Source: Paracoccaceae bacterium (GTDB lineage Bacteria; Pseudomonadota; Alphaproteobacteria; Rhodobacterales; Rhodobacteraceae). Taken from it: a DNA stretch of 63,475 bases. A model generated the notes under the pieces. It ran no database searches. It saw nothing but the letters and a program-made list of their open reading frames with translations, and was not told the DNA's origin. This document shows positions 2,759 to 3,967 of this stretch, one piece after another (position 1 is the stretch's first letter; the number at the start of each line of letters is the position of its first letter). The DNA lies in the NCBI GenBank assembly GCA_947449875.1, contig CANFSY010000002.1:1-63475 (forward strand), given 5' to 3'. The position numbers and the translations under genes were made by a program.

Positions 2759-3136
2759 ATGCCGGAACTGACAATCCTGAACCACTACCGCCTTAACGAC
2801 ACGGCAGCGCATTTTACCGCTGCGATTGCCGCCCTCGCCGCCCGAGTGCAAAGGTGTGGCGAACCGGGTGTTTTGTCCTATCGTTTTTTTGTCAGTGGGG
2901 TTGATCCCGTGGCCCGCGCAGTAATCGACTATGCGACGCCGCAGGCTTGGATCGGCCATCACGAACGTTCGATGCTTTGGCCCGAGATGCAAGCCCTACA
3001 CCGTGTTGCAACGCTTGACGAAGTCACGTTTCTTGGTCCTCTTACTGACGACATTCAGGCTTGGCTGGCCAAATCGTCGTTGACGGCCAAGGTTCACAGC
3101 GGCTTCACCCTTGCTGCGGGGTTTGCCCGCACTTGA
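2759..3136 (+). CDS. ABM-domain-like (antibiotic biosynthesis monooxygenase superfamily) small protein
   Basis: ORF from ATG at 2759 (MPELTILNHYRLNDTAAHF...VLSYRFFVSG...) about 125 aa with ABM-like composition; family call by eye. Confidence 0.6.
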   Translation: MPELTILNHYRLNDTAAHFTAAIAALAARVQRCGEPGVLSYRFFVSGVDPVARAVIDYATPQAWIGHHERSMLWPEMQALHRVATLDEVTFLGPLTDDIQAWLAKSSLTAKVHSGFTLAAGFART

Positions 3137-3186
3137 TCCTCGGTGATCTTGAGCTTACCAAGCAGCCCTATCCCAAGGAGTATGCT

Positions 3187-3810
3187 ATGGCCGTGATTTC
3201 CCCCCTGTTCGTCACCCGTCTGTACCGCGCTGAATTGGCGGAACTGGGCAAGAAAAAGGTCGATTACGCTGAACTTGCGGCGGCCTGTGAGGCGATCGCC
3301 GAGGACGATGAGGCGGGGCAGGAATGGTGCGGAGCGAATGGCTACCCGGGTTATACCAGCTACGCCTCGCTTAACGATCTGCCGTGGCGGTTCCCGATCT
3401 TTGCCGATCTGGAAAAGGCGCTGGACAAGCACGTTGCGGCGTTTTGCAAGGATTTGGGCTTTGATTTGGGCGACAAAAAGCTTAAATGCGGATCGTTCTG
3501 GATCAACATTCTGCCCCAAGGCGGCATGCACGCCAGCCACATTCACCCCCATTCGGTGATCTCGGGCACGACCTATGTGGCCATGCCCAAGGGCACCAGC
3601 GCGTTAAAGCTGGAAGACCCCCGCCTGCCCATGATGATGCACGCGCCGTTGCGGTTGAAGAAGGCCGCGCAAGAGCTGCAAAGCTTTGTTTACGTGAAGC
3701 CCAACGTGGGCGAGGTGCTGCTGTGGGAAAGCTGGCTGCGCCACGAAGTGCCGATGAACATGGCGGAGGAAGAGCGCATCTCGGTTAGTTTCAATTATGA
3801 ATGGGAATAA
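3187..3810 (+). CDS. Putative 2OG-Fe(II) oxygenase, TIGR02466/2OGFeDO_2-like
   Basis: HIHPHSVISGTTYV and GEVLLWESWLRHEVPMNMAEEERISVSFNYEW motifs (candidate metal His residues and 2OG-binding Arg). Confidence 0.85.
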   Translation: MAVISPLFVTRLYRAELAELGKKKVDYAELAAACEAIAEDDEAGQEWCGANGYPGYTSYASLNDLPWRFPIFADLEKALDKHVAAFCKDLGFDLGDKKLKCGSFWINILPQGGMHASHIHPHSVISGTTYVAMPKGTSALKLEDPRLPMMMHAPLRLKKAAQELQSFVYVKPNVGEVLLWESWLRHEVPMNMAEEERISVSFNYEWE

Positions 3811-3967
3811 AGGGAGCGGCCCAAGTTTCGCTTGCCGAAGCGGTTAGGCTCCTGTATTGCGCAGCATCCAACGATTCCGGCTCTGCCAGACTCGTTGGTT
3901 TGTGTTGATCCACCAGATCAACGGTTACCTTCTGGGCCGTCTGGTGCTTGAGAAAAGGAAAAGGCGT

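Follow-up and report, generated by a model that had tools for sequence, protein, structure and literature searches.

The window analysed here, a stretch of 63,475 nucleotides from a Paracoccaceae bacterium (contig CANFSY010000002.1), encodes a 2OG-Fe(II) oxygenase-type protein between the ribosomal protein genes rplP and rpmC, and the location of this gene is conserved among the Rhodobacteraceae far beyond chance. We consider it rather probable that the protein is a PHD-type hydroxylase that was captured once at the seam of two ribosomal transcription units and has been kept for its own catalysis. The oxygenase family is in itself ordinary; its address is unusual and well supported.

The window opens within the ribosomal cluster rplB-rpsS-rplV-rpsC-rplP ... 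rpmC-rpsQ-rplN-rplX and onward, and all the features described below lie on its forward strand. The upstream ribosomal unit ends with rplP (ribosomal protein L16; positions 2266–2679; TIGR01164, 194.5 bits; PF00252), 3' of which lies an intrinsic terminator (2712–2743) with a 10-bp stem containing 8 G-C pairs, a GAAA loop and a T tract. The downstream unit is opened by rpmC (ribosomal protein L29; 3968–4168; TIGR00012, 70 bits; PF00831). The sequence-only reading had described this junction as split by an ABM-like open reading frame and an oxygenase gene, and both the split and the gene order were confirmed. A second hairpin (CGGGGTGGGTTTCACCCACCCT region) was observed at 2683–2703, downstream of the rplP stop codon and upstream of the terminator, and hairpins of differing sequence occupy the equivalent spot in several relatives.

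The first of the two inserted genes (2759–3136), whose start codon lies 15 nt from the T tract of the terminator, is a recent and sporadic passenger. The label ABM finds no backing in any Pfam, NCBIfam or PHROG match; it does find it in the fold, since the best PDB matches of the AlphaFold2 model (pLDDT 81) are the cofactor-independent/ABM monooxygenases SnoaB, MupZ and RslO4. The gene is present in the junction of the window and of two other loci (L226 and L259), missing from that of L225, which has an oxygenase sharing 99% identity with that of the window, and degenerate beside the oxygenase in L055. Because its distribution is sporadic, a role as partner of the oxygenase was rejected.

The site of the oxygenase proved to be conserved when the junction was surveyed across the family, as had been proposed from the sequence. 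Among 150 Rhodobacteraceae genomes representing 149 genera, some match to the protein was found in 101 and a close homologue (at least 62% identity) in 90; the stretch downstream of rplP and its gene mapping cover 134 of the 150. Sixty-five of the 90 close homologues lie within an intact rplP-rpmC junction, 40 of them co-oriented and 25 inverted, and 20 lie alongside the only half that can be seen of a cluster split by rearrangement or by a contig end, with the oxygenase 16 kb from rplP in two of these 20. Only two genomes of the 90 (G091 and G133) carry it elsewhere, in a placement count that covers 87 of the homologues and leaves out those of G057, G110 and G070. Relocation of junction copies was rejected as the account of G091 and G133, whose copies may be separate acquisitions instead, because they group near sequences of other families on the protein tree. 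The junction has a median length of 2357 bp with the oxygenase versus 164 bp in the 43 genomes lacking it.

Another set, made up of 80 named loci, overlaps the first in part and is biased to close relatives; in 62 of these the oxygenase lies between rplP and rpmC. In the genus of the window, all seven genomes in which rplP can be seen, that of the window among them, carry the oxygenase less than 600 bp after it. No rplP is visible in the other nine of the 16 genomes of the genus (G079 among this group), despite high stated completeness, so the absence of the oxygenase there is uninformative; the missing neighbour genes may be a data artefact. No gene other than the oxygenase is widespread in rplP-rpmC junctions, the next family being found in seven; the listing on which this rests gives the oxygenase in 39 of 108 loci, the simple ORF caller having sometimes taken the antisense frame instead. 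One locus titled as a metagenome-assembled genome (MAG) of Exiguobacterium profundum (CP059262.1) has the Rhodobacteraceae arrangement of oxygenase and rpmC, which probably points to a wrong title or a mixed assembly.

Two trees, both quick and with many weak forks, bear on how this distribution arose. On the protein tree the junction copies form nearly one clade, with 2 label changes versus a shuffled mean of 24.7, and on the ribosomal-protein tree the presence of the oxygenase changes at least 15 times, as does its orientation, again at least 15 times. A nearly single clade together with repeated changes of presence and orientation is best fitted by one capture event, after which the gene descended vertically and was repeatedly lost or inverted in place. 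Homologues in other alphaproteobacterial families, at 53–70% identity, have no S10 or spc gene nearby, and the oxygenase is thus probably older than its ribosomal address. Outside the Rhodobacteraceae the homologues have no widely shared neighbour; a BCCT-type transporter lies beside two copies only, and a conserved neighbour as a clue to function was rejected there.

The supposition that synthesis of the oxygenase is coupled to the operon is mostly contradicted. The terminator in the window has a fold z-score of -3.46, and terminators with at least 6 G-C pairs follow rplP in 57 of the 65 oxygenase-bearing junctions versus 4 of 325 shuffled sequences; none was found in 78 rpsC-rplP junctions that served as a control. 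Upstream of rpmC, a promoter-like element (TTGCCG-N17-TATTGC; 3832–3860 in the window) recurs in 82 of 88 genomes with a junction longer than 150 nt, compared with about 8% in shuffles, and in just 2 of 21 where the junction is 150 nt or shorter. With a terminator after rplP, a promoter element and a leader belonging to rpmC itself, and inversion of the oxygenase in 25 of 65 junctions, coupled synthesis is unsupported in general; what stands of the claim is at most read-through in the subgroup of the window, in which the gene is co-oriented, with no promoter to be seen before it. If membership of the S10 operon is taken as the same strand with no stop after rplP, the oxygenase lies outside it. 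The S10 cluster of the Rhodobacteraceae appears to consist of two transcription units that meet at rplP/rpmC. The seam is also a hot spot at which many different unrelated genes are found (L032–L171), and the two genes that border it are fully parted in 16 long loci.

The downstream unit has a structured RNA leader of its own, a hairpin with two 5'-side bulges at 3911–3946, which the covariance model R1 recognises with 38.7 bits as the only site in the genome of the window. In a trimmed alignment of 32 sequences, both partners had changed in 6 of 13 pairs. The covariation score was 0.263 versus 0.136 in shuffles, and 0 of 500 shuffles reached 0.263, although related sequences inflate the measure. 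R1 matches the leader in 84 of 100 sources, always about 20–35 nt before rpmC, and about two thirds of these matches were absent from model building; Rfam gave no match at the leader on the forward strand. The leader is found whether or not the oxygenase is present, and so belongs to the ribosomal unit. By analogy with known ribosomal protein leaders, it probably serves the rpmC-rpsQ-rplN unit of the Rhodobacteraceae as an autoregulatory site.

The oxygenase itself (3187–3810; 207 aa) matches TIGR02466 with 274 bits (cut-off 62.5), its residues 7–206 aligning with profile positions 3–200 of 201, and PF13759 with 122 bits (cut-off 27). It is approximately 70% identical to 2RG4 and 3BVC, two solved and uncharacterised structures from marine Rhodobacteraceae, with which it has a full-length match, the fold and the invariant residues in common; no difference in sequence sets them apart, and what is particular is the ribosomal-junction site, specific to the Rhodobacteraceae in the sample searched. 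The literature searched reports neither an activity nor a function for TIGR02466, PF13759, 2RG4 or 3BVC, and holds no functional account of the S10 insertion in the Rhodobacteraceae. The AlphaFold2 model (pLDDT 94) has the double-stranded beta-helix fold and matched many 2OG oxygenases, the best after 2RG4 and 3BVC being Dictyostelium PHD, the EF-Tu prolyl hydroxylase of P. putida (4IW3/4J25), PHD2 and HygX; no JmjC enzyme was among the top 50 matches.

On its predicted structure, the protein is therefore prolyl-hydroxylase-like (PHD/P4H) rather than a member of the JmjC branch of the 2OG-Fe(II) fold. Its best matches to characterised enzymes include the P. putida P4H and PHD2, and its distal His and basic residue lie in the expected strands, at 11–16% identity and TM-scores of about 0.4–0.6. 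Placement by eye against PHD2 suggests that H115 and G127 may occupy the positions of the P4H Tyr and Arg. These Tyr and Arg residues are conserved in the active site of the P4H/PHD prolyl hydroxylases (PMC4396695). The metal motif differs, the oxygenase having H-x-H where OGFOD1, a member of the PHD/P4H group together with Tpa1, the P. putida P4H and PHD2, has H-x-D (PMC4396695).

The sequence-only reading had assigned the protein to the TIGR02466 type, outside the YcfD/JmjC group, which the profiles and fold matches bear out. YcfD/RoxA (PF08007, JmjC) is the hydroxylase of L16 Arg81. The window oxygenase shares with YcfD the 2OG oxygenase superfamily, and rplP, which encodes the known substrate of YcfD, adjoins its gene; it differs in having PHD/P4H-type fold neighbours and in having no match to PF08007, which also matches nothing elsewhere in the genome of the window. 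YcfD is a JmjC enzyme with extra dimerisation and winged-helix domains (PMC4295552), for which 207 aa are too few.

One alternative, which we regard as somewhat unlikely, is that the protein is a dedicated oxygenase of the ribosome or of a translation factor, whose target might for example be L16 or a proline in EF-Tu or uS12, and that its place reflects this function. The place is conserved across about 60% of genera, and such long positional conservation could itself be selection for closeness to ribosomal genes. Moreover, the nearest functional folds include the EF-Tu prolyl hydroxylase of P. putida and PHD2, and uS12 is the substrate of OGFOD1, which belongs to this prolyl-hydroxylase branch (PMC4396695). 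PF08007, the family of the known L16 hydroxylase, scores above its cut-off in only 4 of the 150 Rhodobacteraceae genomes, so that an L16 modifier would otherwise be missing; RoxA-family genes are too rare to correlate, and a pattern of RoxA replacement was rejected. Against this alternative stand the inverted copies, the intervening terminator, the homologues away from ribosomal loci outside the Rhodobacteraceae, and repeated loss without visible change in the neighbours. In addition, no residue of L16, L29, S17 or L14 was found to track the presence of the oxygenase, in a comparison that is weak because substrate residues may be conserved in any case; some positions in S3, L24, L5, S14, S8, L6 and L18 differ in frequency and look like clade markers.

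On these grounds there is no evidence for L16, L29 or S17 as the substrate, the first two of which had been suggested in the sequence-only reading. Arg82 of the window L16 was correctly counted and is the equivalent of E. coli Arg81, but it is present with or without the oxygenase and is thus not evidence for L16 as substrate; the PHD/P4H-like rather than JmjC fold also speaks against L16, and the location of the outside-family homologues speaks against L16, L29 and S17 alike. The L16-specific and operon-coupled versions of a ribosomal role are not supported. We infer that a ribosomal substrate is absent, and a direct link between the oxygenase and the ribosome is possible. It seems unlikely that an enzyme of the prolyl-hydroxylase type with a three-histidine iron site acts on a ribosomal protein or translation factor, kept at the seam between the separately regulated ribosomal blocks in a family mostly without the known L16 hydroxylase.

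Another alternative concerns the metal site. As the sequence-only reading had noted, the proximal HxH (H118, H120), the distal H186 and R197 are present; together with N203 they are invariant in every alignment, comprising 50 aligned homologues and 80 viral ones, the viral set having been gathered with three search patterns of which one, containing HxHP, introduces a partial bias. The viral homologues (contigs L305–L384; phrog_81, moron class) have the same H-x-H...H...R signature, and one contig (L305) carries a copy 66% identical to the window oxygenase at its extreme end. The signature is HxH...H and not the 2-His-1-carboxylate triad HxD/E...H, and no conserved acid was found across the family alignments; D144 was considered as a substitute ligand and rejected, as it is not conserved in the viral homologues. 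From the order of the motif, H120 would stand in place of the acid. As the usual acid is missing from the H-x-H signature, even the catalytic assignment is putative, and with it the use of iron and 2OG. The site could then bind another metal or have a non-hydroxylating role, the protein not being an active 2OG oxygenase, and the invariance of H120 in all sets would be in keeping with this. However, H118, H120, H186, R197 and N203 are retained even at approximately 30% identity, as would be expected of a functional metal and 2OG site and not of decay, and we regard an inactive protein as quite unlikely.

In the Rhodobacter/Tabrizicola/Pseudorhodobacter group the oxygenase is consistently co-oriented and starts 19–95 nt past the terminator stem. 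A promoter was found before 3 of 41 co-oriented copies near rplP, not above the shuffled rate, and before inverted copies the pattern was little above that rate; the pattern used is simple, and promoters of another type may exist. With a co-oriented gene directly past the rplP terminator and no promoter of its own, low-level read-through would probably express the oxygenase in the subgroup of the window. That attenuated read-through serves as a dosage device, making a low level of enzyme follow the growth rate, would suit the arrangement in this group but is inapplicable to inverted copies or to those separated from rplP by kilobases of other genes, and is decidedly unlikely.

We therefore return to a hydroxylase captured at the seam. 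The ancestor of most Rhodobacteraceae would have acquired the oxygenase once, between two separately run ribosomal blocks, the upstream one ending at rplP and its terminator and the downstream one beginning with the promoter and RNA leader of rpmC. It would have been inherited vertically since then, often inverted in place or lost, and would be retained by selection for its own job, a hydroxylation using iron and 2-oxoglutarate of, most likely, some protein or small molecule. Its position may be stable because the ribosomal blocks on either side seldom change, and in the window's subgroup slight leakage through the terminator would probably suffice to express it.

A strong genomic context, and with it a clear test system, thereby becomes available for an oxygenase family that is uncharacterised and has two orphan crystal structures. 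Should its substrate prove ribosomal, the enzyme would be a new bacterial ribosomal oxygenase from a fold branch other than that of YcfD, and its H-x-H site would depart from the usual iron triad. For the Rhodobacteraceae, the findings indicate a split of the S10 cluster, together with an RNA leader before rpmC that has so far been uncatalogued.
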